DNA of 21,733 nt from a virus. The first letter of the stretch is position 1, and every line of letters starts with the position of its first letter. The stretch covers positions 1 through 21,733 of the IMG/VR virus record IMGVR_UViG_3300028739_000030. One strand, written 5' to 3'. A model generated the notes under the pieces. The model saw only the letters and a program-made list of their open reading frames with translations. It ran no database searches and was not told where the DNA came from. The translations under genes and the position numbers were made by a program. Shown piece by piece: positions 93 through 19,522 of the stretch.

Positions 93-93
93 A

Positions 94-324: not shown

Positions 325-325
325 T

Positions 326-1879
326 TTACCATGAATTATGTTTGTTAATATTATGACGTCCGCCCATAATGGGCACGAAAGCTTCAGTACGTGTGGACTT
401 CTGAAACTTCCATATAGCACCTTCGTCGGCGTCAGGTGCGTCGTCATGGACGGTACTTCCTCGCTCGAGTCCCAGTGTCTGGTCGATTCCTGCAATCATG
501 TCAGGATCATTTGTTTTGTCGATATTGTAATAGATAAAACCGCGTTCCCATAAAGGGGATACGGCCTCAATACGCGCTATCTTATCGGGTTTTTTTCTGT
601 TGTCTGGTGTTAATGGTAGCTGGTGTCCCCGCTCGTCTCCTTCGCGCTCAAATTCATCGAGAAGGGTGTCCTGCATGAAGTTCGCTTCCATATACCATAC
701 TACTGCCGCATTTTCGGGAAGGCTTTCCCACAGGTTGTAACACCACCGAACCATTCCTCTCACGCTGTCCTGGCGAACATAACAGTCTATCAGGTGGAAC
801 TCTTTGCCTTTGCGGCCCCAGAATCTTGCTGCCTTATAGTCGTTTTTCGTGGTTCCCTTGAATGACGGGTCAATGTAAACGATCAGTTGGTCGTATTGGT
901 GTAACGGAAATATCTTTTTATATTTAATCCAGTCGCGTTTAAAGATGGTACCTTCCTTGATGGGGTTGTGCATCATCTCCTTTTCCCAGTTGCGGTACCC
1001 CATGAAAGTGCGCATGGCCTCGGCTTCCTGCTTTGTCCATTTTTCTTTCCATATAGGGTTCCCGGTTGCGTCAACCGCTTTTATTTTAGATAAGAAAACG
1101 TCTTTTGTCTCTGAAAATTCTTGTAATACAGATGTCTTGCTAATCAGGTTTCCCACCATAATGAAGCGGCCACGTCCGACGTCGGTGGCACCAAACAATG
1201 CCGTCTTTACCCACTCAGACATCTCATGAATACGCCGTTCATTTCGGCAAAGTTCGTCATCGTCAAGGTCGTCGATAACGATATAATCGGGACGTGCTTC
1301 CTTATAACGAAGGCCTCGGGGGCTTTGTCCGCGACCACGTGCAAAGAAGGCTACACCGCACTGTGCCACGAACTCACCATCCTGCCAGTCTCCACCACTC
1401 TTCTGTGACCCGTAGTCATTAATGATTCTTTGGTTTGCTTCAAACTCTGCCTGGATGTCTCCCAAGAGACCTTTTGCGGCATCTTCTGACTTGCTGACAA
1501 CAACCATGACGTTGATCAGTCTCTTTGGCTGAAAGATCAGCCACAAAGGCATGAATACATCGAAGTGTGTAGATTTTGCGTGTCCACGCGGCCACATAAA
1601 GGCTGCCTTTAAATTCGGAGTCTCTTTTACTTTCTTTGCCGCTTCGTTATGAAAAGGAGCGTTATGCGTTATCTTAACAGGCTCCCCTGTTGCCTTATCG
1701 TATTGTGTCAGATAATGGGGGAAGTAATACTCGCAAAACGCAGCGTAGTTGTTTCTGAGTTTTTTGATACGCGCACTTTTCTCGCTGTCCGTTTCGTGTG
1801 CGTCCAGGGCTGTTAACTTTTGTACTCGTGTACAATGTTCTCGCCACCTTTCGAGTATTTCTTTTTGTTCCGACAGCAT
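326..1879 (-). CDS. Phage terminase large subunit (packaging ATPase/nuclease)
   Basis: The 517-residue motor protein pumps phage DNA into the prohead and cuts it. The ATPase half shows a Walker A-like WPRGHAKST at residues 96-104 and a Walker B YIVIDDLDDDE at 199-209. A QSPRGLR segment (185-191) precedes it, as in gp17/gp28-type terminases. The C-terminal RNase-H-like nuclease half has candidate metal ligands D337 (in YIDPSF), E398 (in YMEANF) and the acidic cluster D479/D480/D483. Length is normal for the family, and ATPase and nuclease are both complete. It starts three bases after the small terminase stop (TAA-GTT-ATG), so the two are one operon. I think it is closest to the Mu gp28-like group, but subfamily cannot be settled by eye. 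Confidence 0.93.
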   Translation of the reverse strand: MLSEQKEILERWREHCTRVQKLTALDAHETDSEKSARIKKLRNNYAAFCEYYFPHYLTQYDKATGEPVKITHNAPFHNEAAKKVKETPNLKAAFMWPRGHAKSTHFDVFMPLWLIFQPKRLINVMVVVSKSEDAAKGLLGDIQAEFEANQRIINDYGSQKSGGDWQDGEFVAQCGVAFFARGRGQSPRGLRYKEARPDYIVIDDLDDDELCRNERRIHEMSEWVKTALFGATDVGRGRFIMVGNLISKTSVLQEFSETKDVFLSKIKAVDATGNPIWKEKWTKQEAEAMRTFMGYRNWEKEMMHNPIKEGTIFKRDWIKYKKIFPLHQYDQLIVYIDPSFKGTTKNDYKAARFWGRKGKEFHLIDCYVRQDSVRGMVRWCYNLWESLPENAAVVWYMEANFMQDTLLDEFEREGDERGHQLPLTPDNRKKPDKIARIEAVSPLWERGFIYYNIDKTNDPDMIAGIDQTLGLERGSTVHDDAPDADEGAIWKFQKSTRTEAFVPIMGGRHNINKHNSW

Positions 1880-1882
1880 AAC

Positions 1883-2350
1883 TTAGGAATTAGAACTTAA
1901 TTTGTATAGTATATATTTATCCTGATACTTATTAAAAGTCTTCATCAGTTCAGGGGTTACTTCCGGGTCTGTGTTGGATCTGAATTCAAGCCATTTGCTG
2001 AATGCCATAAACACCTCGATGACATCTACCGTATTTGCTTTCTTATCAAGTTTCTGAATGACTGCCGCCAGCTTTGCAAGTTTGTCCGGAGCGGAAGCAA
2101 TCAGTTCCGGGCTATTGCTTTCCTGTATCTGTGTCAGAAGGGTGTCGATTGTGATCAGAACCTTGTTGACAAGTTCGGGACGTGTCACCTGTGTGGCGGC
2201 ACGCTGTTCCTTCCAGCTTTCTGATACACACCATTTTGAAATGGTATTTTTTCCCACCCCGATTTTTTCGGCTATATCAGCCTGCTCCAACCCGGTAAGG
2301 TATAATGTACGGGCAAGTGCCTTTTTGCTTTCAATTTCTAGTTTTTTCAT
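1883..2350 (-). CDS. Terminase small subunit, helix-turn-helix protein
   Basis: This 155-residue protein is the probable DNA-recognition subunit of the packaging enzyme. Residues about 10-45 form a helix-turn-helix: an ALARTLYLTG helix, then QADIAEKIGVGKNTISKW, the typical 'IA..lgvs..TIskW' pattern of small terminases. The rest is helical and likely drives oligomer formation. It begins with ATG at 2350, the first gene of the leftward operon, and lies just upstream of the large terminase. A perfect 12-bp palindrome (2351-2362) touches its start codon and a minus-strand promoter-like pair lies at 2371-2404. A purely regulatory role for an HTH protein is possible, but position makes terminase much more likely. 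Confidence 0.85.
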   Translation of the reverse strand: MKKLEIESKKALARTLYLTGLEQADIAEKIGVGKNTISKWCVSESWKEQRAATQVTRPELVNKVLITIDTLLTQIQESNSPELIASAPDKLAKLAAVIQKLDKKANTVDVIEVFMAFSKWLEFRSNTDPEVTPELMKTFNKYQDKYILYKLSSNS

Positions 2351-2362
2351 AAAACGCGTTTT
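2351..2362. promoter_or_regulatory. Perfect 12-bp palindrome at the small terminase start
   Basis: AAAACGCGTTTT is a perfect palindrome that directly abuts the start codon of the leftward packaging operon. It falls about where transcription from the minus-strand promoter candidate would start. It could be an operator, or a short hairpin at the 5' end of the mRNA. Only the symmetry is observed; a binding role is inferred. Confidence 0.4.
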
Positions 2363-2370
2363 AAACAGTG

Positions 2371-2404
2371 CAAAAATGCTAATAATCGGTCACATTACAA
2401 AAAA
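2371..2404 (-). promoter_or_regulatory. Candidate Bacteroides-type promoter of the packaging operon
   Basis: On the minus strand TTTTTTG (2404-2398) is followed after 19 bases by CATTTTTG (2378-2371). That matches the Bacteroides primary sigma pattern (-33 TTTG, 19-21 bases, -7 TAnnTTTG) with one mismatch in the -7 box. Initiation would fall around 2360-2365, just ahead of the small terminase. This is a visual match in AT-rich DNA, hence moderate confidence. Confidence 0.4.
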
Positions 2405-2437
2405 ACGACGCACGCCCTACACAATAGTGCGCCACCG

Positions 2438-2463
2438 TTGCACACTTTTTTGGATGTGTGCAA
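2438..2463. promoter_or_regulatory. Inverted repeat overlapping the rightward promoter candidate
   Basis: Perfect 8-base arms TTGCACAC (2438-2445) and GTGTGCAA (2456-2463) flank a 10-base centre that contains the proposed -33 element. A nine-base direct copy, GTGCAAAAA, occurs at 2368-2376 and again at 2458-2466, next to the leftward promoter candidate. The arrangement suits a regulator that controls both late operons. No protein that would bind it can be identified in this window. Confidence 0.45.
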
Positions 2464-2480
2464 AAAGTGATGTAATATTG
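2447..2480 (+). promoter_or_regulatory. Candidate Bacteroides-type late promoter for the head-tail operon
   Basis: TTTTTG (2447-2452) is followed after 20 bases by TAATATTG (2473-2480), which fits -33 TTTG / -7 TAnnTTTG with one mismatch. Initiation near 2487 would leave a leader of about 70 bases that carries the 2500-2533 inverted repeat before the protease-scaffold gene. No other comparably good match was seen before the long plus-strand gene series. Confidence 0.42.
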
Positions 2481-2499
2481 CAGCAGAAATGTGGATAGA

Positions 2500-2533
2500 G
2501 AGGCCGTGAAGCTAAGGCTAGAGTAGCGGCCTC
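2500..2533 (+). promoter_or_regulatory. GC-rich leader hairpin before the protease gene
   Basis: Arms GAGGCCG (2500-2506) and CGGCCTC (2527-2533) are perfectly complementary, with a 20-base loop. They lie between the promoter candidate and the ATG at 2555, so the structure would form in the 5' leader of the head-tail transcript. It could stabilise the mRNA or act as a control point. A terminator is less likely because no U run follows. Confidence 0.4.
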
Positions 2534-2554
2534 GATTTTATAAATGATAAAAAT

Positions 2555-3526
2555 ATGGCACGAGTAAGAATAACAAACAGTAGTCTTAACAGTTACGGGA
2601 CACGCGTCCTCACCGATGGGTTGGATATAAGTCAGTATCAACGAAATCCGGTGTTATTATGGATGCACGAACGTGGAAACGTAATAGGGTTTGTGACAGG
2701 TATTGCAAAAGAAGGTGACGACATAACCTGCGAACTTGTGTTTGATGAGGTTACCGACTTGTCAAAACAGCTCAAACAGCAGTTTGATAAAGGTTCCATC
2801 CGTATGACTTCAATAGGTATTGACATTATAGAATTATCCGATGACCCGAATCTTCTGGTTATCGGCCAAACCCGACCGACAATTACAAAATCAAAATTAT
2901 GCGAGGTTAGTCTGGTAGACATCGGCGCAAATGACGATGCTATTCGACTAACCCGCAACGGTCACGTATTAACATGCGGACAGGGTGGAGAAAACACGCT
3001 TCCTTTAATTAACAAAATAACAAAAAACATGGATCAGAAGATTTTAGCAGTAAAACTCGGACTCCCGGAGACGGCGGACGAGGCAGCGATCAACGCAAAG
3101 ATCGCAGAGATGCAAACAAACGGAAACAAGACTGTTACCGATTTGCAAACACAGGTTGAAACCCTGACAAAAGAGAAGGCTGGCCTTGAGGCCGAAAAAG
3201 CAAAGATTACCAGCAGTGTGATCGAGAAGCTGGTTGATGACGCTGTCAAAGAGAAAAAGCTGAATGCCGACAAAAAGGCTGAATTTGTAGAGCTGGGCGC
3301 AAAGCTTGGAGCCGAAGGACTGTCAAAGGTTCTCGACAGTATGCAACCTGCTGTTAAACTTGGAACCTTGGTAATGGGTCACCAGGGCGGTGGGGCTACA
3401 GGAAATACAGACGCGAAGAAATTAAGCGACATGTCACCTGAATCGCAGGTGCAGCTCAAGGCTGACGACATTAACAAGTATCGCGTTCTGTACAAGGCCG
3501 AGTACGGATTGGAATGTCCGGTATAA
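2555..3526 (+). CDS. Prohead maturation protease fused to scaffold domain
   Basis: The 323-residue protein has two parts. Residues 1 to about 140 look like a caudoviral prohead serine protease: RNPVLLWMHERG holds the candidate catalytic His38, and CEVSLVDIGANDDA holds the candidate Ser119, as in the 'EVSlVd.paN..A' signature of the family. Residues 159-323 form a scaffold-like part: a coiled coil rich in Lys/Glu/Ala (about 165-235), a Gly-rich spacer (GHQGGGATG) and a helical tail. The scaffold would shape the prohead and then be cut out by its own protease. The gene is first in the rightward late operon and is followed after 16 bases by the major capsid gene. An internal ATG at 3029 could give free scaffold. 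Start chosen at 2555 because the domain begins at once. Confidence 0.85.
   Translation: MARVRITNSSLNSYGTRVLTDGLDISQYQRNPVLLWMHERGNVIGFVTGIAKEGDDITCELVFDEVTDLSKQLKQQFDKGSIRMTSIGIDIIELSDDPNLLVIGQTRPTITKSKLCEVSLVDIGANDDAIRLTRNGHVLTCGQGGENTLPLINKITKNMDQKILAVKLGLPETADEAAINAKIAEMQTNGNKTVTDLQTQVETLTKEKAGLEAEKAKITSSVIEKLVDDAVKEKKLNADKKAEFVELGAKLGAEGLSKVLDSMQPAVKLGTLVMGHQGGGATGNTDAKKLSDMSPESQVQLKADDINKYRVLYKAEYGLECPV
3029..3526 (+). other. Possible internal translation start giving free scaffold
   Basis: The ATG at 3029 is codon 159 of the protease-scaffold gene, in frame, preceded by a very A-rich stretch (AACAAAATAACAAAAAAC) like the leaders that drive translation in this phage. Initiation here would give a 165-residue protein with only the coiled-coil scaffold and tail, comparable with the nested protease/scaffold pairs I/Z of Mu and C/Nu3 of lambda. 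The context is observed; use of the start is inference. Confidence 0.35.
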
Positions 3527-3542
3527 CAAACATTTTTAAGAT

Positions 3543-4592
3543 ATGAAGAAAGTATTAACAGCAATTCTTGCTGCCGTCATGTTGAACAGCATGGTCGGCG
3601 TATTGTTCGCCCACATGATGGGTGCAGATGCTATTACGTGCGCCATCGGTGCAAATGTGGTAGCCGGTATGTTTTCGCAGTTTGCCCCTGAAGGCTCATT
3701 ACGAGAAGGTATATTGACAGAGATCTGGACAGGAGAAATGATCAAACGTCTCCGCGCAGGACTTGACGGGACATGGTTAGCCGGCGTTCCGGACAGTTCG
3801 TCGGTCGTTGAAAACGACGTCATACATCTTGTGGATGTTGGTGTGGATCCCGACGTGCTGATAAACAACACGACTTATCCTATCGATTTACAGGATTTGG
3901 ACGATACCGATAAAGCGATATCGCTAGACAAATTTCAGACAAAAGTCACCCCACTCACTGATGATGAGCTGTACGCTATAAGCTACGATAAAATGTCACG
4001 CATACAGGAAAGTCACCGGAATGCCTTAGCCGATGCGGAATTCACCAAGGCGGCACATGCACTGTGTCCGACACAGGATACTACGACAACGCCCGTATTT
4101 ATTACGTCCGGAGATGATGACGGTACAGGTCGCCTAAAGTTGACCGTGAAGGATGTTATTAAGTTGAAACGTGCCATGGATAAGGCTAAGGTTCCACTTG
4201 ACGGTCGCCGCCTGGTACTTTGCCCTGATCACATCAATGACCTTTTAGAGCAGGAGCAGAGATTCGCGCAGCAATTCTACCAGTATGAGACCGGTAAGAT
4301 TACCAATATGTACGGATTTGAGATTTACCAGTTTGTCAACAACCCATATTATACAACTTTGGGTGTCAAGGTGGCTGTTGGAACAACGCCAGGTACAACA
4401 GACAAACAGGCCTCTTTTGCGTATTATGTTCCGCGCGTATTCAAAGCTACCGGAAGTATGAAAATGTACTACCGTGACGCTCAGACAAACCCGCGGTATC
4501 AGCGCAATGAGATCAATTTTTGCCATTATTTCATCTGTATGCCTAAAAAGGAGGATGCAAATGTGGCTATTTACTCAGGTACAAAGGCATAA
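3543..4592 (+). CDS. Major capsid protein (HK97-fold type inferred)
   Basis: This 349-residue protein lies straight after the protease-scaffold gene, where the major head protein is expected. It reads like the capsid family of Bacteroides Mu-like phages: an EIWTGEMIKRLR segment, then NDVIHLVDVGVDPDVLINN, then SLDKFQTKVTPLTDDELYAISYDK, and a C-terminal beta-rich half ending near KMYYRDAQTNPRYQRNEINF. Unusual is the N-terminus: residues 1 to about 50 start MKKVLTAILAAVMLNSMVGV and look like a signal peptide or membrane segment. Since it precedes the conserved capsid body, I take it as a delta-like segment to be trimmed by the prohead protease, not a secretion signal. The start at 3543 is the first ATG, 16 bases after the protease stop. 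Fold assignment is from context and remembered family features. Confidence 0.82.
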   Translation: MKKVLTAILAAVMLNSMVGVLFAHMMGADAITCAIGANVVAGMFSQFAPEGSLREGILTEIWTGEMIKRLRAGLDGTWLAGVPDSSSVVENDVIHLVDVGVDPDVLINNTTYPIDLQDLDDTDKAISLDKFQTKVTPLTDDELYAISYDKMSRIQESHRNALADAEFTKAAHALCPTQDTTTTPVFITSGDDDGTGRLKLTVKDVIKLKRAMDKAKVPLDGRRLVLCPDHINDLLEQEQRFAQQFYQYETGKITNMYGFEIYQFVNNPYYTTLGVKVAVGTTPGTTDKQASFAYYVPRVFKATGSMKMYYRDAQTNPRYQRNEINFCHYFICMPKKEDANVAIYSGTKA

Positions 4593-4599
4593 TTGAGTG

Positions 4600-5055
4600 A
4601 TGGAACTTAAAAGACTCGTCATTCATTGTACCGCAACCCCGGAAGGTCGTGAGGTGACCAGTGCTGAAATAAGGCACTGGCACTGCGATCCGGTAAGCAA
4701 GGGCGGAAGGGGATGGAAAAAGGTAGGATATTCGGATATGATACATCTTAATGGAGGTGTTGAAAATATGATACCCTACAATGAGGACAACAATGTTGAC
4801 CCATGGGAGATAAGCAACGGTGCTGCCGGATATAATAGTACCAGCCGCCACGTGGTATATGTGGGCGGTGTGGATGAATCCGGAAAGCCGAAAGATACCC
4901 GAACGGATGCGCAGAATGCGGCGTTGATTAAATATGTCAAAGACTTCCACCGCAGACATCCCGGCGCAGAAATCGTTGGTCATCATCAGTTGAATCCCGG
5001 AAAGGCTTGTCCTTCTTTCGACGTCCCTTCATGGATTAAGAGTATAAGACTATAA
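4600..5055 (+). CDS. N-acetylmuramoyl-L-alanine amidase endolysin
   Basis: This 151-residue enzyme of the T7-lysozyme/Amidase_2 family cleaves the bond between muramic acid and L-alanine in peptidoglycan to release progeny. The fold spans the whole protein. Candidate zinc ligands are His9 (in LVIHCTAT), His128 (in VGHHQLNPGKACPSFDV) and Cys137. Tyr44 (in GYSDM) and Lys135 match catalytic residues of T7 lysozyme. No signal peptide is present, so it needs a holin. I start it at the ATG at 4600; a GTG one codon earlier (4597) is possible and adds one residue. It lies 7 bases after the capsid gene and 10 bases before the holin-like gene, so it opens a lysis cassette inside the late operon. Confidence 0.92.
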   Translation: MELKRLVIHCTATPEGREVTSAEIRHWHCDPVSKGGRGWKKVGYSDMIHLNGGVENMIPYNEDNNVDPWEISNGAAGYNSTSRHVVYVGGVDESGKPKDTRTDAQNAALIKYVKDFHRRHPGAEIVGHHQLNPGKACPSFDVPSWIKSIRL

Positions 5056-5065
5056 AATTAAGAAT

Positions 5066-5578
5066 ATGGGCACGATATTAGCAATATTACAATGGGCAAT
5101 ACCGGGTGGAGGTATAGGTGCTGCAATCGCGTGGCTTGCAAACAGAAAAAGCGCAAAGGTGCGAGAGTCGCTTGCGGCCAAGGATGTGCACGATACGTTT
5201 AAGTCTATGTACGACGACGTTTCCGCCCTGCTTGAGAAAACACAAAAAAAATATGAAGAAATACAAACAGAATTTGAAAAAATCAGAACAGAAAATGGAA
5301 ATCTTAAACGTGCCATTAATGGTCTCAAAAAGGCTATTCAGGCAATCCAGAAATGCCCTCATAATATGCAGTGCCCTGTTCGCAATGAGTTGTCAGTCGA
5401 CCCGGACGATAGCGGTTCAGAATCCTCAGATAAAGGACAGTGTGTCGGCGGTGGCGATGTCGGCATCAACGCTGATAACCGAAGTGGAACCCCCGCAGGT
5501 GGACACGGCAGCGCTGGAAGTAACGATCCCGCAGCTGGAAGCACTTCCGACGGGAGCAAGTTACACGCAGACAAATAA
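5066..5578 (+). CDS. Holin-like membrane protein with coiled coil
   Basis: The 170-residue product begins with a hydrophobic, Gly-rich segment (residues about 3-24, ILAILQWAIPGGGIGAAIAW) followed by a basic patch and a coiled coil (about 40-95). Next comes a Cys motif, CPHNMQCPVRNEL (residues 97-109), then about 60 residues of Gly/Ser/Asp-rich low complexity. One membrane pass and a position after the endolysin suit a holin or lysis accessory protein. Similar proteins with a CP.R.EL motif follow the amidase in other Bacteroides phages. The low-complexity tail coincides with the region that also encodes the lipoprotein in another frame, which may explain its odd composition. An inner-membrane spanin role is the main alternative. 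Confidence 0.62.
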   Translation: MGTILAILQWAIPGGGIGAAIAWLANRKSAKVRESLAAKDVHDTFKSMYDDVSALLEKTQKKYEEIQTEFEKIRTENGNLKRAINGLKKAIQAIQKCPHNMQCPVRNELSVDPDDSGSESSDKGQCVGGGDVGINADNRSGTPAGGHGSAGSNDPAAGSTSDGSKLHADK

Positions 5579-5870
5579 AACAACGCGTGTTACGCTGAAA
5601 AAGACCGGCAAAGGGATTGTTGCCACCGCCGAAGCGGTTGCACCCTCTAAAGTAAAGACAACAGCATCGATAAGTAGCAATGCGTCATCAACATCAAAGA
5701 ACGATGTGAAAGCAGCGGTTACAAAAACAACGGAGATAAAGCCTATTAAGGTGCATTTCTTTTCCGTATTCGATGTTATCATTCTGGCTGTCGTGGCGCT
5801 TATTGCGGTCGCGATATGGATCATCAAGAAAAAGAAAATCAACTTAAAAAAATGGTATTATGGATTATAG
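5319..5870 (+). CDS. Overlapping lipoprotein, unimolecular spanin candidate
   Basis: In another frame, starting inside the holin-like gene, lies a 183-residue protein. From ATG 5319 it begins with a lipoprotein signal: basic n-region MVSKRLFRQSRN, hydrophobic ALIICSALFAMS, then Cys25. A long Ser/Thr/Val/Ala-rich middle follows, then a C-terminal membrane segment (about 146-170, VFDVIILAVVALIAVAIWII) and a KKKK cluster. An outer-membrane lipid anchor at one end and an inner-membrane helix at the other is the plan of u-spanins such as T1 gp11, which fuse the two membranes in the last step of lysis. The first 260 bases overlap the holin-like gene; the end overlaps the tail tube gene by 11 bases. 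Starts at 5295 or 5253 would lengthen the n-region. Architecture is visible; function is inferred. Confidence 0.65.
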   Translation: MVSKRLFRQSRNALIICSALFAMSCQSTRTIAVQNPQIKDSVSAVAMSASTLITEVEPPQVDTAALEVTIPQLEALPTGASYTQTNKTTRVTLKKTGKGIVATAEAVAPSKVKTTASISSNASSTSKNDVKAAVTKTTEIKPIKVHFFSVFDVIILAVVALIAVAIWIIKKKKINLKKWYYGL

Positions 5871-6306
5871 AGATGGAACTGACCTTATATTGTCTATTCC
5901 CATAGCAGGAAAACAGACGGCTATTGGCCATTCTACGGAATGTAAAATCGGTTATAAATCCGAAACCGGAACCCGTAAAACAAAAGAATCAAACAGTGGT
6001 AAATGGGCGGAGAAATATGTGAAAAGTCTTACTGCCACAATTACTGCAGGAGGCTTTGTGTTTGATGGCGACGTGGCAGGACTTCCGGAGTTTAAAAAAG
6101 TATTCAAGGCAGGCGAATCAGTGCAAGCATCATGGAACTATCGGGACTCTCAAACCGTTGAGTATGGAGACTTCGTTATTTCAAGCCTTGACCAGGAAGG
6201 AAAGGCCGGAGATGACGAGACATACAGTATCACACTCGACAACAGTGGGGCTGTGAAAGACGGCACCATGACAGCCGGCGTGATCACTGAAAATACGGGA
6301 GCATAA
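5860..6306 (+). CDS. Major tail tube protein
   Basis: This 148-residue protein is beta-rich and begins MDYRDGTDLILSIPIAGKQT. The pattern 'G..TaiGhstec.i...sET...K.s..gkwaeky.....at..a.g' fits phage major tail proteins of siphoviruses (TP901-1/lambda V type), which stack into the tail tube. Its place directly before the tail assembly chaperones and the tape measure gene is the canonical one. The ATG at 5860 lies inside the end of the spanin candidate (11-base overlap), and the stop is two bases before the next gene. The Asp/Gly/Thr-rich C-terminus (GDDETYSITLDNSG) resembles the tube subdomain. No sheath gene lies next to it, which favours a non-contractile tail. Confidence 0.75.
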   Translation: MDYRDGTDLILSIPIAGKQTAIGHSTECKIGYKSETGTRKTKESNSGKWAEKYVKSLTATITAGGFVFDGDVAGLPEFKKVFKAGESVQASWNYRDSQTVEYGDFVISSLDQEGKAGDDETYSITLDNSGAVKDGTMTAGVITENTGA

Positions 6307-6308
6307 TT

Positions 6309-6608
6309 ATGGCAGAAAAGATAAAGATAACGATTACGACATCTGATGGGAAGTCTTTTCCCTGCAAGTTGACATTGGGCGCAATGCGCAGGTTTAAGGA
6401 AGAGACGGGACACGACGTAAGTCAGATAGACGGTGCGGCTGATATGGCCGTTCTTGTGTGGTGCTGCTGCAAGAGTACCTGTAATGCTGAAGGAATAGAA
6501 ATGCCATACGATCTCGTTGATTTTACAGATCGCCTGGACAGTGATGCAATACAGGGATTCTCGGCTTTGCTCGATCCTGAAAAAAAAACAGTTCAGACAG
6601 TGAAATAA
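6309..6608 (+). CDS. Tail assembly chaperone, short form (gpG-like)
   Basis: The 99-residue protein lies between the tail tube and tape measure genes, where tail assembly chaperones are almost always found. It begins MAEKIKITITTSDGKSFPCK and contains a conserved-looking LTLGAMRRFKEETGHDV segment, typical of these chaperones. Near the 3' end the codons GAA-AAA-AAA-ACA form a nine-A run (6580-6588), after which only six codons remain before TAA. The overlapping second frame continues without a stop from this run, so this protein is probably the abundant short form of a G/GT pair. It would coat the tape measure protein before the tail tube polymerises. Confidence 0.75.
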   Translation: MAEKIKITITTSDGKSFPCKLTLGAMRRFKEETGHDVSQIDGAADMAVLVWCCCKSTCNAEGIEMPYDLVDFTDRLDSDAIQGFSALLDPEKKTVQTVK

Positions 6609-6937
6609 TAGATATTGACATTCTCTTGGGGCTTGCAGTGGGGCGTATCGGTATGAGTGTTATGGACTTTGACAGATGCACCCCACGTGAGTTTAACGAG
6701 ATTGTTGAAGCGTGGACGACGGGAAAGAAAAACGAAGAACGCGCCGAATGGGAGCAAACGCGTATGCAATGTTTTTATTACGTCAGAATGCACACAACAG
6801 ACAAGCTGGATCCAAAAGATATTATCCGGTTTGAGTGGGACAATAAGGACGATGGGAAAACAGAAACCTGCAAAATGGATCCCGAAAAGGAACGGCAGCG
6901 TTATGGGGAAATAAAGAAAAAACGTGGAATAGAATAA
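6309..6937 (+). CDS. Tail assembly chaperone, frameshifted long form (gpGT-like)
   Basis: A -1 shift on A-AAA-AAA (6581-6587) joins the short chaperone to the frame that ends at 6937. The fusion would be 209 residues: 93 from the first frame, then 116 from the second. The joined reading continues NSSDSEIIDIDILLGLAVG, then RIGMSVMDFDRCTPREFNEI, which is good protein sequence directly after the slip site and before any ATG of the second frame. A separate second gene would have to use TTG at 6626 or ATG 6653 and would lose the DIDILLGLAVG part. G/GT frameshifting between tail tube and tape measure genes is widely conserved in long-tailed phages. The T part ends basic (EKERQRYGEIKKKRGIE). The frame is observed; the shift is inferred. 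Confidence 0.7.
6581..6587 (+). promoter_or_regulatory. Probable -1 ribosomal frameshift site
   Basis: The heptamer A-AAA-AAA fits the X-XXY-YYZ rule in the reading frame of the short chaperone (codons AAA 6582, AAA 6585). The zero-frame stop TAA lies at 6606, and the -1 frame is open to 6937. No clear downstream hairpin or pseudoknot was found by eye, so efficiency may rest on the A run. Confidence 0.62.
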
Positions 6938-6938
6938 A

Positions 6939-9900
6939 ATGGCAAATTCGGTAACATTTCAGATCAAAATAGAAACTGCGGGCGGGGAGAGTGTCAGAAC
7001 CGTCACGATGGATGCACGCCAGCTCGGCGAGGCCATTAATCAGGTGAGCAATAATGCTGAGCACATGAATAGTCGCCTGCTTGATATCAATCAGGCATCT
7101 ATGGCGTTACAGAATGCGTTTAACGGTTTTTCTCAAATTTCTGAAGAGATCAGAAACCTGACCGGATTATATGTTGTTCAAGAAACAGCAGAGGTTAAGC
7201 TTCAGACTGTTATGAAGCAACGTATGAATGCTACCGAAGGTGATGTTAAAGGCATTGAACGTCTGACGGAAGCACAGAAGAATCTGGGAATAGTAGATGA
7301 CGATATACAGTTGTCGGGATCTCAGCAACTGGCCACCTTCTTAAATAAGCGTAAAAGCCTTGAGATGCTTATCCCTGCAATGAATAATTTGTTGGCACAG
7401 CAAAAAGGATTTAACGCTACCGAAGAGGATGCTGTGAATATTGGCAACATGATGGGTAAGGCCATGCAGGGCCAGACAGGCGTGTTGTCACGCGTTGGTG
7501 TTACATTCACGGATGCACAAGCGCAGATTATCAAGTATGGTACTGAAGAACAACGTGCCGCCACTCTAGCTCAAGTAATAACCGACAATGTCGGACAGAT
7601 GAACCAAAACCTTGCTCAGACAGATGCCGGAAAGGCCAAACAGCTCGCCAATAATTTTGATGATATAAAAAAGAAAATAGGTGCGGCTCTTTCCGAATAT
7701 GAGCCGTTTTTGACGGGAATGAGTGAGTTGGGTATGACAATTTTTGCACTTACAAATGTAGCAAATGGTGTTAGGGGTATTGCGACTGCTTTTTCTTTAT
7801 CCAGAATTACGCAATTAGCATCAGTTGCAGCAACAAAACTTGATGCTCAGGCAAAAGGAATACTGACAGCGATGAATATTACAACGACGGCAAGCACGTG
7901 GGTGCTTCGTGCGTCAATGGTGGCACTATATGCAACGATGACTTTTGGGCTATTCCTTGCCGTCCAGGGGCTTATTTCTCTCTATGAAAAATTATCAGAG
8001 AAGTCTTCCGGGGCTACAAAAGAGGAAGAGGATCAAAAGCAGGCAGTAGATGACGCCGCACAGGCACGGCAAAATGAGTCACAGCAGCTTCAGCAGACAC
8101 GTGCGGCGCTGGAAATAAACATTCAGAAGCTAAAAGAGTTTCATGGATCAAAGGAAAAAGAAAAGGCTCTAGTGGAAGAGATGAACTCCGCATACGGGAC
8201 AACGATTGGCTATTTCTCTACCGTTTCGGATTGGTATAAGGCTTTGACGGCAGATAGTGCCGCATATTGTGATCAGATGGTGATTGAAGCTAGGACGCGT
8301 TCGCTGGCTGATGAGATCGCTAAAAAGGAACAAGAAAATCACGAGCTCAAATATAACGAAAACGGAACCGTTAAAAAATACTCAAAAGAGAGGGAAACGC
8401 AGACCGTATGGCAAAGCGCGAATGGCGCCGGATCATATCAAACAGAAGTGGAAGTGGCCGGGTCGAGTGATCTGGAAAAGGCACAAAGTAAAATAAAGAA
8501 GAATACTGAGGCTGTCAGCAGTCTTAAAAAGCAGATGCAGGAAGCATCTGCCGAAGCCGGGAAAATAAAGATACCTGTAGTTGGTTCACCTGATCGTCCG
8601 GATTTGGACACAAAGAAGAAAAAGAAGGACGACGTCCTTGTTGAGGACGCAAAGAGTTACGCGGATCTGGCAAATAATATTGAAATCTGGCAAAAGAAAC
8701 TTGACGCTACAGACCCTTCAAATCAAAAACAGATACAGACGCTTAGTGAAAGCATTAAAAAGGCAAAGGGTCAGCAGGAGGCTATCAAGGAATTGCAGGC
8801 GGAATATTCAAAGCCTGCACAACTGAAAACGCTAGAAGATTACGGAACGGAGATTACCAGACAGGAGAACCTGCTGAAACATGCCGGTGACAGTGAGCGG
8901 GCTGAAATAGCAAATAATATTCAGAAACTTAAGGACAAGCGTGACGCAATGGAAAAGGCTACTAAAATAGAGCCATTAGTCACCGAGATAAGCACCTATA
9001 AACAACTTGATGATGCGATTAAGTATTATCAGGATGCACAACAAAATGCAGATGCAGTAACCAGACCGATGTATGCTGCACGGATTGATCAACTGAATAA
9101 AATAAGAGAGGGGTGGTTGTCGGTGGATGAAGCTGCCAGCAAGCCTGCAGGCATCGCTGAACTTAATACATACAAGCAACTGGATGACGCTATTACTTTT
9201 TATAACAAGCAGGCTCAAACGGCAGAAGGCGACCAATTGACAGCTGTTGAAGGAACCGTAGCGGCATTAACAAGGAAACGTCAACTTCTGCAAGATCTTG
9301 GAAACCTGTCGGCCACACAGGTGGAATTGTCTGACTTAAGCGGTTTGACAGATAAAGAGGTTACGATAAGACTTAAGGAAGTTGGTGTTGATGGGATCAA
9401 GAAAAAGATAACGGATCTTAATAAACTTATTTCTTCACCTTCCACTTCTGCTGCACAGGCAAAAAATATAAAATCTCAGATTACAGAATGGACAAATTAT
9501 GAAGCAAAACTTCGTAAAAGTCAAGTTACGTTTGAGAAGACGTGGGGCGACGTAAAGTCCGTAGGAAATGGGATAAGGGATCTTTCTTCAACCTTGAAGG
9601 GAAACGGATCGGCCTGGGATAAGTTAACGGGTATTGTCGATGCGGGTATAGAGATATTTAACGGAATTAGTTCTATTATACAGGTTGTTAAGGCGCTTAC
9701 GTCTGCTACAACCGTAGAGCAAACCACGCAAGCATCCGCACAGATGGCAACAAACAGTGCCGAAGCTGCTACATGGTCAGGTCTTGCGGCAGCTAAAACT
9801 GTTGCAGCATACGCAGGACTTCCTTTTATTGGTGAGGGTTTGGCTACTGCACAGATAGCCTCTTTTCAAGCTATGATCGTGGCCGCAGCTGTTCCCAAAT

Positions 9901-10115
9901 TTGCAAATGGAAATATAGCTTATGGCCCAACGTTGGGTTTATTTGGAGAGTATGCCAATGCGTCTCGCAATCCCGAGGTAACGGCACCTTTGGATAAACT
10001 GAAATCTATGATACAGCCTTCGGGGTTTGGAAGTGGGGAGGTAGTTTTTCGTCAACGCGGCCGTGATCTTGTTGGTGTTTATCAGAGACGTAATAATCTG
10101 TCTCGTAGAAGTTGA
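6939..10115 (+). CDS. Tail tape measure protein
   Basis: At 1058 residues this is the longest gene in the window. It fixes tail length and is ejected ahead of the DNA. The N-terminal 250 residues are helical with a Gln/Asn-rich start. Hydrophobic segments lie at about 257-285 and 320-347 (TMTFGLFLAVQGLISLY) and again near 955-985, as expected for a protein that enters the cell envelope. Residues 572 to about 798 hold four divergent helical repeats of about 57 residues, beginning at K572, L629, I684 and L742; the last two share TYKQLDDAI. The ATG at 6939 is one base after the chaperone stop. If tail length follows the usual 1.5 Å per residue, the tail would be near 150-160 nm. Confidence 0.93.
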   Translation: MANSVTFQIKIETAGGESVRTVTMDARQLGEAINQVSNNAEHMNSRLLDINQASMALQNAFNGFSQISEEIRNLTGLYVVQETAEVKLQTVMKQRMNATEGDVKGIERLTEAQKNLGIVDDDIQLSGSQQLATFLNKRKSLEMLIPAMNNLLAQQKGFNATEEDAVNIGNMMGKAMQGQTGVLSRVGVTFTDAQAQIIKYGTEEQRAATLAQVITDNVGQMNQNLAQTDAGKAKQLANNFDDIKKKIGAALSEYEPFLTGMSELGMTIFALTNVANGVRGIATAFSLSRITQLASVAATKLDAQAKGILTAMNITTTASTWVLRASMVALYATMTFGLFLAVQGLISLYEKLSEKSSGATKEEEDQKQAVDDAAQARQNESQQLQQTRAALEINIQKLKEFHGSKEKEKALVEEMNSAYGTTIGYFSTVSDWYKALTADSAAYCDQMVIEARTRSLADEIAKKEQENHELKYNENGTVKKYSKERETQTVWQSANGAGSYQTEVEVAGSSDLEKAQSKIKKNTEAVSSLKKQMQEASAEAGKIKIPVVGSPDRPDLDTKKKKKDDVLVEDAKSYADLANNIEIWQKKLDATDPSNQKQIQTLSESIKKAKGQQEAIKELQAEYSKPAQLKTLEDYGTEITRQENLLKHAGDSERAEIANNIQKLKDKRDAMEKATKIEPLVTEISTYKQLDDAIKYYQDAQQNADAVTRPMYAARIDQLNKIREGWLSVDEAASKPAGIAELNTYKQLDDAITFYNKQAQTAEGDQLTAVEGTVAALTRKRQLLQDLGNLSATQVELSDLSGLTDKEVTIRLKEVGVDGIKKKITDLNKLISSPSTSAAQAKNIKSQITEWTNYEAKLRKSQVTFEKTWGDVKSVGNGIRDLSSTLKGNGSAWDKLTGIVDAGIEIFNGISSIIQVVKALTSATTVEQTTQASAQMATNSAEAATWSGLAAAKTVAAYAGLPFIGEGLATAQIASFQAMIVAAAVPKFANGNIAYGPTLGLFGEYANASRNPEVTAPLDKLKSMIQPSGFGSGEVVFRQRGRDLVGVYQRRNNLSRRS

Positions 10116-10142
10116 TTTAAACAGTAATAAAATAGCATTAAA

Positions 10143-12566
10143 ATGGCATTCGGAAAAAGATATACAGGAACATATTATACTAACCAGGACATTAAATGGA
10201 CGGTAGAGATATGGTGTAAGGATTATAGCGGAGGTGTAGGTGATCTTACCTTTCCGGACGATGAGCCATTAACTATTGAATGGGAAGAGAAAGGCGTGGA
10301 AGAACCTATTATGGGAAGCAATGCAACGCTGAAGGTAATTAGTCCGGGAGACCGTACTTATATGGATTTATATTCCATTAAGGCCGGAGAGATAAGGATG
10401 GACGTGCAGCGCGATGATAAATTATATTGGAGTGGAACGCTTGATCCGGAATTCTATGAAGAGCCATACGCTACTGTTGGAGATTACGAGGTGAGCTTGA
10501 CGTTTACTGATTTCGGAATCTTCGAGCGTTTGAAATATAACCTTACAGGTGTACAGAGTATCGATAGCATACTGAAGGATGCTTTAGAAAGGAGTGGAAT
10601 TAACTTTGCTGTGGTCACAAACTACTGCAGGGCAAATGCAACAGACGGGGATGCTCTCAGTCTGACAACAGTGGAGGAAGGAACGACGTGCGGGGCTGAT
10701 ACAAGTATGATAACCACGCAGCGATCCTCGAGAGGCAACGACGGTCTGAGATATACGGTAGATCTGTCGACTATTGGCATCAAAAGCGAGAATTGGACAG
10801 ATGAAGACGGGGAGGTATCAAATTTAAAAGATGTGATAACCCATATTCTTACACCTCTTGCGCTGAAGATACGACAGAAGGCAGGAAAGATATATGTGTT
10901 TGATCCGAATGGTTTGGCACAAAGGAATGCAACAAGGCGTATTGAATGGGCAAGCGATGACCAGGTGCTAGGGACGGGTGAGGTATGTAATACGGTAAAG
11001 GTGACATTCAGCCCTTATGCGTCGTCATCTCTGGATGTTGCGGATATTAAACTTGTTGACTATGATAAAGCCTATTATCACATTTTGAGTAGCTTTAGTG
11101 ATGTTGAGTTTCTCACAAAATCTGCACTTGGGTGGAGGCAAACCGTCAATGTAAGCACCTTTGAAAGTGAAGATCCGGCGCGAGGATTTACACTTCATTG
11201 GGGTAAGAGTTCCGGTATTGGTGCAACAATTAATATTAATGAGGTTCAGTTTTTCCATCTTTTCCCTTGGAACTCTGGTGAAGAGTGTGATGGAATTGCG
11301 GCGCTTGTCTCTCAGGAATATTTTAAATATATATCAAGTTCGAGCTATGAACATCAGAAAACTAATATACTTCCACGAATAGACACCAATCATTATTATA
11401 TCAATTCTTATCGGTATATCACAACAGCAACTACGGTAACTGATGCTTTTATGGCAGCTTCGACGCAATCAATGTTTTCTATTTCGGGGATCAGGATTGA
11501 AAAAACGGGCGGAGGTACATGTTATAGACTTAAGCTCCCGATGCTGCTAGACGTAAAATACAATCCCTATGAGGATGCCGGTGATGATCTGAGTTATAAG
11601 AATAAAGTGGACTGGGTGAAGCATTATGTGAACTGGGTATATGTTCCGATAAGGATTATCTTGACCGGAGACGACGGTCATCAATATGTCTTTTGCAACT
11701 GGTCAAATGCTTCAAGCGCAGTGAGTAATCCCGTGAGCTCGATGAAGGGCACATGGGTGCAAGATGGTGATGTGCTCGGATGGGGGTCGGCGTTCCTGTC
11801 ATATTATAGTTATGACGACAGGGTGGATGATACCGGGGTGCTTGGATGGCAAGAAAATAAACATACCATCCCGCGAACAACGAATAAATTGAACGGGAAT
11901 ATTGTGAACCGCCAGACGGGAGAGTATATTCCATCCCCTCCTGTAGGTGGTACGATACAGATATCTGTCGGTGACAGGCTGATCCTGATGAACGACGTCG
12001 ATGCGTTGTCTGAACATAATAATGATGCGGAATGGACGTGGCTTCTTTTTAAAAAGCCAACCATTGAACTGGTAAACGTGATGACAAACCAAACTGCTGA
12101 GCAGGACGATGTGACCTATAAAGGTGTTATCAACTCTGACGCTAAAGACGATAAGGAGGTGGATACAAATTGCGGGACGCTAGAGGATGACTCCCCCCTA
12201 GCTAAAGGTTGTTTTCTTGACATGACGAAATTGAATGAACAGATACACACATTTGTTCGTGAGTCTCGAAACTCTCAGGCCGAAAAGCTTCTTATAGGTA
12301 CCATTTATTCGCAAACGGGTGACAGAATGTTGAAACTCAGCGGAACTATTAATACAAGCGGGAAACATCTTGTCAATGGGCTTGAAGATGATAATTTATA
12401 TCATGGGGACGATCCTCTTGGTCTCGTAAGGGAAGTATCGGCGGGTGATGATATCAACTTTGCAATAGCAAGTATAGTGGAGGACTGTTCAAATGATACT
12501 GCTGAAATTGTATTGCTGGAAATATCAGAAGATGAATATATAGACGTGGAGGTAGAAGATGAATAA
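10143..12566 (+). CDS. Tail tip or baseplate hub protein
   Basis: The 807-residue protein follows the tape measure gene, the position of distal tail and tail-associated hub proteins. The N-terminal 150 residues are beta-rich with a patterned core (DEPLTIEWEEKGVEEPIMGS, then LYWSGTLDPEFYEEPY), which resembles the hub start seen in many Bacteroides phages. Next comes a SIDSILKDALERSGI helix and a region with LSTIGIKSENWTDEDGEVSN, where small ligand-free hub domains often lie. The C-terminus is very acidic (EISEDEYIDVEVEDE). No enzymatic motif is visible. The last eight bases overlap the next gene, which suggests coupled translation. Assignment rests mostly on order and composition. Confidence 0.68.
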   Translation: MAFGKRYTGTYYTNQDIKWTVEIWCKDYSGGVGDLTFPDDEPLTIEWEEKGVEEPIMGSNATLKVISPGDRTYMDLYSIKAGEIRMDVQRDDKLYWSGTLDPEFYEEPYATVGDYEVSLTFTDFGIFERLKYNLTGVQSIDSILKDALERSGINFAVVTNYCRANATDGDALSLTTVEEGTTCGADTSMITTQRSSRGNDGLRYTVDLSTIGIKSENWTDEDGEVSNLKDVITHILTPLALKIRQKAGKIYVFDPNGLAQRNATRRIEWASDDQVLGTGEVCNTVKVTFSPYASSSLDVADIKLVDYDKAYYHILSSFSDVEFLTKSALGWRQTVNVSTFESEDPARGFTLHWGKSSGIGATININEVQFFHLFPWNSGEECDGIAALVSQEYFKYISSSSYEHQKTNILPRIDTNHYYINSYRYITTATTVTDAFMAASTQSMFSISGIRIEKTGGGTCYRLKLPMLLDVKYNPYEDAGDDLSYKNKVDWVKHYVNWVYVPIRIILTGDDGHQYVFCNWSNASSAVSNPVSSMKGTWVQDGDVLGWGSAFLSYYSYDDRVDDTGVLGWQENKHTIPRTTNKLNGNIVNRQTGEYIPSPPVGGTIQISVGDRLILMNDVDALSEHNNDAEWTWLLFKKPTIELVNVMTNQTAEQDDVTYKGVINSDAKDDKEVDTNCGTLEDDSPLAKGCFLDMTKLNEQIHTFVRESRNSQAEKLLIGTIYSQTGDRMLKLSGTINTSGKHLVNGLEDDNLYHGDDPLGLVREVSAGDDINFAIASIVEDCSNDTAEIVLLEISEDEYIDVEVEDE

Positions 12567-16921: not shown

Positions 16922-17695
16922 ATGGCACTAATGAAATTAACTGATAAACCCACTGTGGGCAGTGTAAATTTAACTGATTTACTTACATTAAATCAGGGAT
17001 CTTCGGCAAAACAAGTTGCTGTACAAAAAGTAGTAGACTTGTCGTCGGCTGCTGCTTCCATCGCCGCTCAAACAGCATTGACCCCGTCTTTATTAGATGG
17101 CGTATTTATTATGTATCATAGGAAGTCGGATAATATTCCCATCCTTGCAACGTCAGTGGCATGGCCGGCATTACAAACGGCTGGAGAAATCGCCGATGGC
17201 GTGTTAGTATTGCAAGGAGGTAAGCACCTTGTTGTTGCTCCAACTGAGACAAATAAATATTTTTCAAGTAGTGCAGTGCTCGTTGGAACGGCTGTAACTG
17301 ACAGAATCGTGGCGATGAACGATTGGAATGGCAAGGCATTAACTGCCGCACTTGTTGCAAATGCAACATTAGCCGTAGATGGGGACGGGTTTGCACCAGG
17401 ATGGGCACATGCTTATTCTCGTACAAATGCAAATGGGCAAGGACTAACAGCCGGTAAATGGTGGCTTCCGGCTGCTGGAGAGAATACGTTCATGCTCGCA
17501 AATTTCAACAAGATAAATAAATGCCTCTCTGTGATCAATGGCGCGACTCTATTACAAGGTGGTGCCTACTGGTCTAGCACTGAGGGCTCAGCGGCGGGCG
17601 CATGGGACTTGAACCTCGGCAACGGCTTCCTGAGCCCGTACACTAAGGTGAGCATCCTGTACGCTGTGAGGCCAGTGTCAGCATTTATCTCTTAA
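16922..17695 (+). CDS. DGR target: variable tail protein with C-type-lectin-like domain
   Basis: The 257-residue protein is the substrate of the retroelement. Its N-terminal 60 residues (KPTVGSVNLTDLLTLNQGSS) look like a virion attachment segment. The C-terminal domain carries the DGR-target hallmarks GKWWLPAAGE (178-187) and AYWSSTE (215-221), then the variable repeat that encodes residues 220-254 and ends AVRPVSAFIS. Residues that differ from the template are 222, 225, 226, 229, 236, 238, 239, 240, 245 and 247. N231 and N234 in LNLGNG are template-encoded but unchanged here. In known C-type-lectin DGR targets such residues line the ligand face, so this is probably a receptor-binding tip. 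Avd follows after 24 bases. A second ATG at 16931 would remove three residues. Confidence 0.92.
   Translation: MALMKLTDKPTVGSVNLTDLLTLNQGSSAKQVAVQKVVDLSSAAASIAAQTALTPSLLDGVFIMYHRKSDNIPILATSVAWPALQTAGEIADGVLVLQGGKHLVVAPTETNKYFSSSAVLVGTAVTDRIVAMNDWNGKALTAALVANATLAVDGDGFAPGWAHAYSRTNANGQGLTAGKWWLPAAGENTFMLANFNKINKCLSVINGATLLQGGAYWSSTEGSAAGAWDLNLGNGFLSPYTKVSILYAVRPVSAFIS
17579..17683 (+). repeat. DGR variable repeat (VR)
   Basis: These 105 bp at the 3' end of the target gene align without gaps to the template repeat 598 bp downstream. Thirteen positions differ: 17585, 17586, 17594, 17597, 17598, 17606, 17627, 17628, 17634, 17636, 17639, 17655 and 17660. At every one TR has A, while VR has G (7), T (5) or C (1). 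The last 23 bases (17661-17683) are identical in both and contain the likely initiation site of mutagenic homing. Similarity stops at both ends. Confidence 0.97.
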
Positions 17696-17719
17696 ACCCT
17701 TTAACTCTTTAACTCTTCA

Positions 17720-18067
17720 ATGATAGCGACAGAATTACCAGTGTATCATGATGTCTATAAATTTGTAAAGATGGTGGCCATGGCACAAAATAATTATTCA
17801 AAACAGTTCAAATACGGGTTGGGCGAAAAAACGCTCAACACCGCTATTGAGCTGTTCGAGTATATCCAACTTGCGAACATGTTCAAAGAAAATAGAAAAG
17901 TCCATTTAAATGGCTTTATAATCAAGTTTGAAACTGTTAAGACACTGTTAAGAGTCGCAGAAGATTTTCATCAAATAAGTATCAGCAAACGTGCAGAGAT
18001 GTTCCCTGTTATCGAAAGAATTGGTCGGCAAATTACAGCATGGAAAAATGCCCCTCTTAAGCAGTAG
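17720..18067 (+). CDS. avd: DGR accessory variability determinant (Avd)
   Basis: This 115-residue, basic, helical protein fits the Avd family in size, place and sequence. Avd forms a pentameric barrel of four-helix bundles that binds the reverse transcriptase and template RNA and is required for cDNA synthesis in the Bordetella phage element. Visible segments: YHDVYKFVKMVAMAQNNYSK, YGLGEKTLNTAIELFEYIQL, a third helix FETVKTLLRVAEDFHQ, and a fourth, MFPVIERIGRQITAWKN. The pattern 'fPk..ry.lg..l...a.e.l..i..A' is typical of Avd and the related S23 bundle proteins. Start at ATG 17720, after a run of TTTAACTC-type repeats. Downstream comes the template repeat, giving the order target-avd-TR-RT. 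Confidence 0.9.
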   Translation: MIATELPVYHDVYKFVKMVAMAQNNYSKQFKYGLGEKTLNTAIELFEYIQLANMFKENRKVHLNGFIIKFETVKTLLRVAEDFHQISISKRAEMFPVIERIGRQITAWKNAPLKQ

Positions 18068-18083
18068 GCATTTTGTGACAGAA

Positions 18084-18107
18084 TTTTGTATTTTACGGAA
18101 TACAGAA
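18084..18107 (+). promoter_or_regulatory. Hairpin in the leader of the DGR template RNA
   Basis: TGTATT (18087-18092) and AATACA (18099-18104) pair perfectly around the loop TTACGG; TTT (18084-18086) and GAA (18105-18107) extend the stem with one G-U pair. It lies 17 bases after the avd stop and about 70 bases before TR, so it would be part of the structured template RNA. DGR template RNAs need flanking sequence for priming, but no function is shown here. Confidence 0.4.
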
Positions 18108-18176
18108 GAGTTCCTTCCATAAAGAAATGGGTGCCCGCTATCATTTATAGCTAAAAATAAGAAAGTGGCACAATAT

Positions 18177-18281
18177 ACTGAGAACTCAGCGACGAACGCA
18201 TGGAACTTGAACCTCGGCAACGGCAACCTGAACACGAACACTAAGGTGAGCAACCTGAACGCTGTGAGGCCAGTGTCAGCA
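18177..18281 (+). repeat. DGR template repeat (TR), non-coding RNA source
   Basis: The 105-bp invariant donor copies into the VR of the target gene through an RNA and an error-prone cDNA. Read in the target's frame it holds ten AAC and two ACG codons, and all thirteen VR differences lie in these. AAC mutated at its adenines gives NNC codons, which never include a stop. The repeat lies between avd and the RT gene and ends 20 bases before the RT start codon. It is not itself inside a protein gene, so it should act as RNA. Its exact RNA ends are unknown. Confidence 0.96.
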
Positions 18282-18301
18282 CTTCAAAGAAAGGAATTAT
18301 T

Positions 18302-19522
18302 ATGGTAACGATAGAAGATATTACAAAGGCATATATTGATTGCCGTAAAAAGAAACGGAACACAAACAATGCTATCAGATTTGAGATAGACTACGAATGC
18401 AATCTTGCTAGGCTCACTGATGAGATTAACGACAGGACGTATCAGATATCACGTTGCCTCTCATTTGTCGTTACAAGACCGAGATACAGGGAAGTCTTTG
18501 CAGCTGATTTTAGAGACAGAATCATTCATCATTATATTGCATTAAGACTTATCCCCATACTCGATAAGATTATGAACGATAGGAGTTTTAATTGCAGGGT
18601 AGGGAAAGGGACTTTGTCGGGCGTCAAGCAGCTATACGCGGACATAAAAGAGTGTTCAAATCAATATACACAGGATTGCTGGGTATGCAAAATGGACATA
18701 AGGGGGTTTTTCATGAGCATCAATAGACTCATGCTAGCCGAAAGGGTAGAGAAACTTACAAAGAAATATTATATAGGAGACGATAAAGAAGACCTCCTGT
18801 GGCTTGAGGGAAAAACGATAACCAACAGTCCGGAATACAACTGCATAAAGAAATCGCCATTAGAACTGTGGAATTACATTCCGAAAGAAAAGAGTCTCTT
18901 TACAAATGGAGAAAATATAGGCTTACCGATCGGAAATTTACCGTCTCAGATATTGGCAAATTACCTGATGGATTCCATCGATTGGGAAATTGAAAATATG
19001 GGACTTAAATATCATGGGCGGTATGTCGATGATATTTATATTGTCGACAGAGATAAAAGTCTTATCTTGAAATCTATTCCGAAAATAAGGCAGCTGTTAT
19101 CTGAAATTGGACTGACACTTCACCCTAGAAAGTTCTATTTTCAGCACTATTCGAAGGGCATTGAATTTACCGGAACAATCATAAAGGGGAATAGATCTTA
19201 TGTAAATAACAGGATCGTATTTTCTTTTAAAAATTCAGTTAAGGAACTCGAACAGGCTAAGACGATAGATGAAATATTTTATGCAGTCTCACGCGTCAAC
19301 TCATACCTCGGAACAATGTCACATCACAATACTTACGCAATCAGAAGTGACGTATTGGTTCATGCAGACATCTATAATAAAGTATATGTCGGTGGAAAAT
19401 ATGAAAAGGTAGTGGTTAAAAATAAATATAAATATCGTGAATTCGTCAGAAAGGAAATCAATAAAAGGAAATGGGTCGAAATTGGACTCGCAAGTCCTGT
19501 ATTCCAAGAACCCTCCAAATGA
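18302..19522 (+). CDS. DGR reverse transcriptase
   Basis: The 406-residue enzyme copies the template RNA into cDNA with errors at adenines. Fingers and palm motifs are in order: REVFAADFRDRIIHHYIALR (63-82), SFNCRVGKGT (95-104), the first catalytic Asp132 in KMDIRGFF, a DGR-type insertion with YNCIKKSPLELW (179-190), LPIGNLPSQ (208-216) and YVDD (241-244) with Asp243/244. The GNLPSQ form, instead of QG...SP of retroviral and group II enzymes, is diagnostic for DGR reverse transcriptases, which are error-prone. The C-terminus is basic (KNKYKYREFVRKEINKRK), as expected for the thumb and RNA or Avd contact. AGAAAGG lies about 10 bases ahead of the ATG, one of the better ribosome sites here. All catalytic residues are intact. 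Confidence 0.97.
   Translation: MVTIEDITKAYIDCRKKKRNTNNAIRFEIDYECNLARLTDEINDRTYQISRCLSFVVTRPRYREVFAADFRDRIIHHYIALRLIPILDKIMNDRSFNCRVGKGTLSGVKQLYADIKECSNQYTQDCWVCKMDIRGFFMSINRLMLAERVEKLTKKYYIGDDKEDLLWLEGKTITNSPEYNCIKKSPLELWNYIPKEKSLFTNGENIGLPIGNLPSQILANYLMDSIDWEIENMGLKYHGRYVDDIYIVDRDKSLILKSIPKIRQLLSEIGLTLHPRKFYFQHYSKGIEFTGTIIKGNRSYVNNRIVFSFKNSVKELEQAKTIDEIFYAVSRVNSYLGTMSHHNTYAIRSDVLVHADIYNKVYVGGKYEKVVVKNKYKYREFVRKEINKRKWVEIGLASPVFQEPSK

Follow-up and report, generated by a model that had tools for sequence, protein, structure and literature searches.

A DGR of a Mu-like transposable phage with two probable targets, one at the end of the tail genes and one in the early operon

Phage DGRs are mostly explained as tail-tip diversifiers. 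In the DGR of Bordetella phage BPP-1, sequence is transferred by adenine-specific mutagenic retrohoming from a template repeat (TR) to a variable repeat (VR) in a C-terminal lectin domain, with a reverse transcriptase (RT) and Avd; a hairpin with a GAAA loop lies just after the VR, and its loss nearly abolishes homing (PMC3240598). Two targets are known from the Bacuni phages F1, F2 and F4 of Bacteroides uniformis (PMC8143477), in which the genes run in the order target, bAvd, TR and RT and a second, remote target encoding a 224-aa protein lies in the DNA replication module. Two-target phage cassettes are also known from the tentaclin phages (PMC10743442). Of the two lectin targets of the Quimbyvirus DGR, one belongs to the structural region; the other is remote and non-structural (PMC8008677). 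Hankyphage (Bacteroides phage p00, PMC6199706) is a Mu-like transposable phage with a DGR for which a single VR was reported, at residues 2188-2225 of a large ORF.

The DNA analyzed here, referred to as the window, comprises 21,733 nt (all of the stretch taken from IMG/VR record IMGVR_UViG_3300028739_000030). Its DGR has the Bacuni gene order, with an RT about 50% and a local target about 53% identical to those of Bacuni, and the remote Bacuni target is homologous to the second target described below. The backbones differ, that of Bacuni being a non-transposable siphovirus with a recombinase and DNA polymerase A. The phage shares with hankyphage the Mu-like transposable character, the divergent terminase/structural layout, homologues in the early operon and the presence of a DGR, but the gene of the second target was not found in the hankyphage early operon. 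Quimbyvirus was likened to the second target by layout and not by sequence; its RT is in three frames, and its second target sits within an island of defence genes and is encoded on the opposite strand. Two targets, and a second target that is non-structural, are therefore prior art (PMC8143477, PMC8008677). New are the occurrence of the two-target arrangement in a Mu-like transposable phage, the recognition that the remote target belongs to a conserved protein family, associated in more than one backbone with early modules and bearing selection signatures, and the lack at both targets of the GC hairpin found in most relatives.

The local target gene (16922..17695, plus strand; 257 aa; C-terminal part phrog_4245) sits at the end of the tail genes and carries the VR, here called VR1, in a C-terminal lectin-type domain. 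It is 52-53% identical to its homologues in Bacuni phages F1/F2/F4 over residues 56-256; the lectin fold was assigned by sequence similarity because the structure model of the protein itself was too poor (pLDDT 55). It is followed on the same strand by a bAvd accessory protein of 115 aa (17720..18067; PF22296, E=6e-13; phrog_3206 Avd, E=2e-15), the TR (18177..18281) and an RT of 406 aa (18302..19522; PF00078, E=3e-19; phrog_1423, E=5e-66). The RT motifs IGNLPSQ and YVDD, read from an alignment, match the DGR types GxxxSQ and YxDD, and the protein is 48-51% identical to the RTs of the Bacuni phages. Both the RT and Avd are intact open frames. The gap between the TR and the RT gene (18282..18301, plus strand) measures 20 nt, compared with 20-53 nt in relatives, so a spacer RNA recruiting or priming the RT would overlap the start of the RT coding sequence. 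No conserved RNA fold was found across the TR-RT junction among 19 relatives, the alignment there being gappy, and no Rfam family was found in the window. With an adenine-only VR/TR pair, an adjacent DGR-type RT, Avd and a lectin-type C-terminal target, the cassette is a complete DGR, which alone is ordinary. The RTs of the Mu-like relatives G026, G027, G031, G035 and G037 scored much higher on phrog_1423 than the window RT, which suggests that the Mu-like backbone has acquired cassettes from different origins by exchange. The RT of phage F4 (L009, 4001-5131) lacks 19 residues of that of phage F2, a difference described as an insertion in F2 (PMC8143477).

VR1 (17579..17683, plus strand) and the TR, compared directly, align over 105 nt without gaps at an offset of 598, and the same pair was found independently by a repeat finder; no third copy was found in the window. 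The TR contains 34 adenines, mostly in AAC codons and in register with the target. Thirteen of these are changed in VR1 (7 to G, 5 to T and 1 to C), while none of the 71 G, C or T positions is altered (0/71). The original prediction had placed all 13 differences on template adenines with these same counts and had judged random divergence hardly possible; the counts were reproduced exactly and the judgement was supported, the probability that all 13 mismatches would fall on adenines by chance being 6.6e-8 (hypergeometric). Realignment, proposed there as the check, gave no non-adenine substitution within the 105 nt. The nearest one lies immediately outside, at the first base past the repeat, which is C in the TR (18282) and T in VR1 (17684). 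Since this base in relatives is nearly always C in the TR and T in both VRs, the difference was taken to mark the end of the homing tract and not hypermutation, and the boundary of the repeat matters to the count. The 3' end of VR1, identical to the TR (17661..17683, plus strand), is the likely initiation-of-homing segment. A DGR that has worked is thus the only reading of the pattern that fits, and it is supported by the presence of all cassette parts. That it worked in the recent past, as also predicted, is only loosely supported: from 0 changes at 71 non-adenine sites, the rule of three gives an upper limit of about 4% on the divergence accumulated since homing last occurred.

That the window represents the structural arm of a transposable, Mu-like phage was concluded from its terminase, its layout and the Mu-type genes of overlapping contigs. 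The terminase large subunit (326..1879, minus strand) shares about 30% identity with its hankyphage p00 counterpart, and the divergent terminase/structural layout is common to both phages; the protein is 100% identical in the contigs that hold the second VR and ties them to the window phage. Over positions 1..11879 the window matches contig IMGVR_UViG_3300030294_000156 (L013) at 100% identity; this contig extends leftwards beyond the window as far as the second VR and in that extension encodes a Mu-type portal (Portal_Mu) and F protein (Phage_Mu_F). Three further genes, for a phrog_310 transposase, a phrog_296 DNA transposition protein and a phrog_6891 ATPase, were found on overlapping contigs. 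The window phage thus combines several hankyphage-like features: a divergent terminase, a portal and F protein of Mu type, and a transposase and B protein of Mu type. No near-identical phage was found in the phage collection, and no match to a host genome was obtained. Near the contig end, at 21621-21710, repeated CATTTCGTTTT...ATAAAAA motifs were noted by eye; they are possibly transposase-binding repeats of a Mu-like right end.

The second VR (VR2) was located by using the TR with every A set to N as a query against viral contigs. Four contigs were recovered with one copy each; two of them share an overlap of 99.98-100% identity with the window, and the remaining pair is 99.98-100% identical to the first. 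The scan gave VR2 copies only, with no VR1 variants of the window strain in the viral collection. VR2 occupies window-equivalent positions of about -7722 to -7615, about 25.8 kb from the TR, and the four separately assembled contigs agree there. It differs from the window TR by 9 changes, all at TR adenines and none elsewhere in 105 nt (p = 1.7e-5). As in the Bacuni phages, a single TR thus corresponds to both a local target and a distant one that belongs to the VR2 family and lies in the early or replication region, although here the targets are on separate contigs: TR, VR1 and VR2 occur together on no single contig, and the link between them is 11.9 kb of perfect identity.

VR2 forms the 3' end of a C-type-lectin gene of 219 aa (contig L120, 3217-3876), which begins 12 nt after the ATPase gene and ends 21 nt before the next gene. 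The order is phrog_310 transposase, phrog_296, phrog_6891 ATPase and VR2 gene, with spacings of 34, -4, 12 and 21 nt, so the VR2 gene shares an operon-like run with MuA and MuB, and later early genes come after it. The VR1 and VR2 proteins share phrog_4245 and invariant C-terminal residues. In the model of the VR2 protein (mean pLDDT 86.5), a pair of helices at the N terminus precedes a lectin-type domain that starts at about residue 42; its best solved match was a fimbrial tip of B. ovatus (4eps; Z 14.9, rmsd 2.7, 170 residues), followed by the C-terminal domain of Legionella Lcl (Z 11.1, rmsd 3.2, 118 residues).

The VRs and TRs of relatives were aligned, as the original prediction had proposed, and the same pattern was obtained. 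In 29 ungapped pairs 400 of 992 TR adenines were changed, against 4 of 1879 other bases, and the 13/34 of the window is in line with this pooled rate; the pooled VR1 pairs came from a scan that tolerated mismatches at one template base only, so these counts lean toward the pattern. Without trimming, 37 pooled pairs gave 519 mismatches at A and 26 elsewhere; gapped alignments and the 5' repeat edge account for most of these 26. A fairer test of the bias comes from VR2s that were located through protein homology, independently of the adenine pattern. In the remote VRs of seven other phages found in this way (G001, G003, G004, G010, G012, G016 and G022), 102 of 103 VR2/TR mismatches were at A, and the remote VR of Bacuni F1 has 16 changes over 103 nt, at adenines only.

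VR2-type genes also occur in unrelated phages. A profile search returned 165 related stretches, and a homologue aligned over most of its length was present in 11 of the 24 records that hold the cassette or target of relatives. In Bacuni-like phages the gene lies among genes for an exonuclease, a single-stranded DNA-binding protein, DNA polymerase, a PcfJ-like protein and a primase-helicase; larger phages of 66-107 kb (G074, G082, G086) also carry VR2-type proteins with adenine-only VRs. In nine close pairs pN was lower than pS in the gene body wherever changes were seen, and pN exceeded pS in the VR; between L248 and L252 the gene bodies are identical and the VR alone differs. The bodies of VR2-type genes are thus under purifying selection while the VR is hypervariable. 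Among the Mu-like phages, a full-length VR2 homologue was found in none of 27 relatives, and of the 28 Mu-like records only the window phage's own contig matched. Relatives such as L017, L033, L071 and L087 have the same MuB-ATPase-g158 order with the ATPase and g158 genes close together and the VR2 gene absent, as at an empty site. Because these relatives do without it, the gene looks inserted into the early operon of the window lineage, together with a Bacuni-type cassette at the opposite end.

Where one contig of a relative holds both VR1 and VR2, the two are always co-oriented. This fits the replication-direction preference of the DGR found in E. coli (PMC12875486), a comparison confounded by gene direction. 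Phages of 89-112 kb were seen to encode a second, divergent RT, which lies about 0.8-2.9 kb downstream of their VR2-type gene (L264, 7407-8735; L246, 9567-10841; L162, 6476-7738). In different phages a gene for a PcfJ-like protein (PF14284) follows the remote target at a short distance downstream (L206, 7538-8776; L246, 7699-8994; L251, 7162-8439).

A GC-rich hairpin is no defining feature of DGRs as a whole. In relatives, one of 7-10 bp follows VR1 and VR2, typically with a GAAA, GGTA or GCAA loop and some 25-45 nt beyond where the coding match ends; it was present at 20 of 24 VR1 and 38 of 51 VR2 loci scanned, against a background of 18 in 2000 random stretches (0.9%). Hairpins with GAAA and GCAA loops also follow the two VRs of Bacuni. 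The window phage differs from these and from BPP-1: no such hairpin was found within 110 nt of the window VR1 or the L120 VR2, and the homing site of BPP-1 type, a GC-rich 7-10 bp hairpin with a 4-nt GRNA loop tens of bases 3' of the VR, is missing. For VR1, VR2 and the TR, the 3' flanking DNA folded no better than shuffled sequences. Just past the VR there is a pyrimidine-rich sequence common to VR1 and VR2 of this phage. At these two VRs, either another signal serves or efficiency has dropped. The hairpin is absent from both targets and yet the adenine signature is clean, which makes this phage a natural test of the hairpin's necessity.

It is very probable that this is a complete, two-target DGR in a Mu-like, hankyphage-type transposable phage. 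The TR RNA would be copied by the RT together with Avd and would home by the standard DGR route to two sites, VR1 where the tail genes end and VR2, about 25 kb away, in the 219-aa lectin-fold protein. Counted against this are the split of the TR and VR2 between contigs, bridged by perfect identity, and the lack at both VRs of the GC-rich hairpin required for homing in BPP-1, in view of which present activity is presumptive. That the repeats are two duplicated segments which diverged by chance or in the ordinary way explains the existence of a repeat and nothing more; it was refuted by the probabilities given above for VR1 and VR2 and by the recurrence of the pattern in relatives. It is highly improbable that VR2 belongs to a different phage or to an assembly chimera and that the window phage has VR1 only. 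The window contig does stop short of VR2, and the VR2 contigs stop short of the TR, but the 11,879 bp are 100% identical, four separate assemblies agree at VR2, VR2 differs from the window TR at adenines only, and relatives show the same two-target layout within single contigs or genomes. A cassette that homed once and has since lost its activity, for instance along with the hairpin beside its targets, is unlikely. Such a fossil would account for the lack of the hairpin 3' of VR1 and VR2 in the window lineage, given the near abolition of homing in BPP-1 without it (PMC3240598); the RT and Avd frames are intact with the expected motifs, however, and the 71 non-adenine sites of VR1 and TR show no decay.

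As to the use of two targets, VR1 would vary the tail tip for host recognition, and the placing of the second target in the early (transposition) operon hints at a purpose beyond variation of the tail tip. The favoured reading of the VR2 protein is an intracellular hypervariable binder, expressed early and not part of the virion, that would vary against a changing intracellular or cell-surface partner; its non-virion status is argued from operon position. It may instead be a second virion or adhesion protein, such as a particle-decorating lectin, that is merely encoded early. This we regard as rather improbable. The protein shares its lectin fold with pilus tip and bacterial adhesins, and both Bacuni targets were read by the authors as adhesins resembling fimbrial tips (PMC8143477). 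Against this, its gene forms part of the early transposition operon in this phage and in others is flanked by genes for DNA polymerase and primase, its N-terminal region is unlike that of the tail target, and genes of this type are kept in an early or replication setting across different backbones. A fuller account that keeps the early, non-virion binder is put forward tentatively, at less than an even chance: one template would serve two jobs, in a tail-tip protein and in an early lectin-fold binder of a changing host partner (e.g. a defence or receptor component); the pair and the cassette would have travelled together among unrelated phage backbones, one of them transposable; and homing here would proceed without the usual hairpin. 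A hypervariable early-operon protein with a conserved body and a hypermutated tip offers a concrete handle on the role of second, non-structural DGR targets.

The codons of VR1 were compared with those of the TR. Ten of the 12 AAC/ACG codons are altered in amino acid, N231 and N234 remaining the same, as predicted. These 12 had been called the designed codons; they were counted correctly, but the term leaves out other adenine-bearing codons, of which T220, E221, S223, A227, T241, K242, S244, R250, P251, S253 and A254 are without change in VR1. A special meaning of the unchanged N231 and N234 was rejected: in the 29 ungapped VR/TR pairs 83% of AAC/AAT codons were changed and 17% unchanged, the probability of at least two unchanged out of ten is 0.53, and N231 is replaced by Ala in VR2. 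AAG codons, represented in the window by K242 (TR 18243-18245), were changed in 0 of 32 cases in the 29 pairs despite carrying template adenines, perhaps through selection or sequence context. AAC codons were changed in 82% of cases in the same pairs, and the commonest single outcome among them when pooled was AAC to TAC, which matches the tyrosine bias at AAC reported for the BPP-1 RT (PMC12875486).
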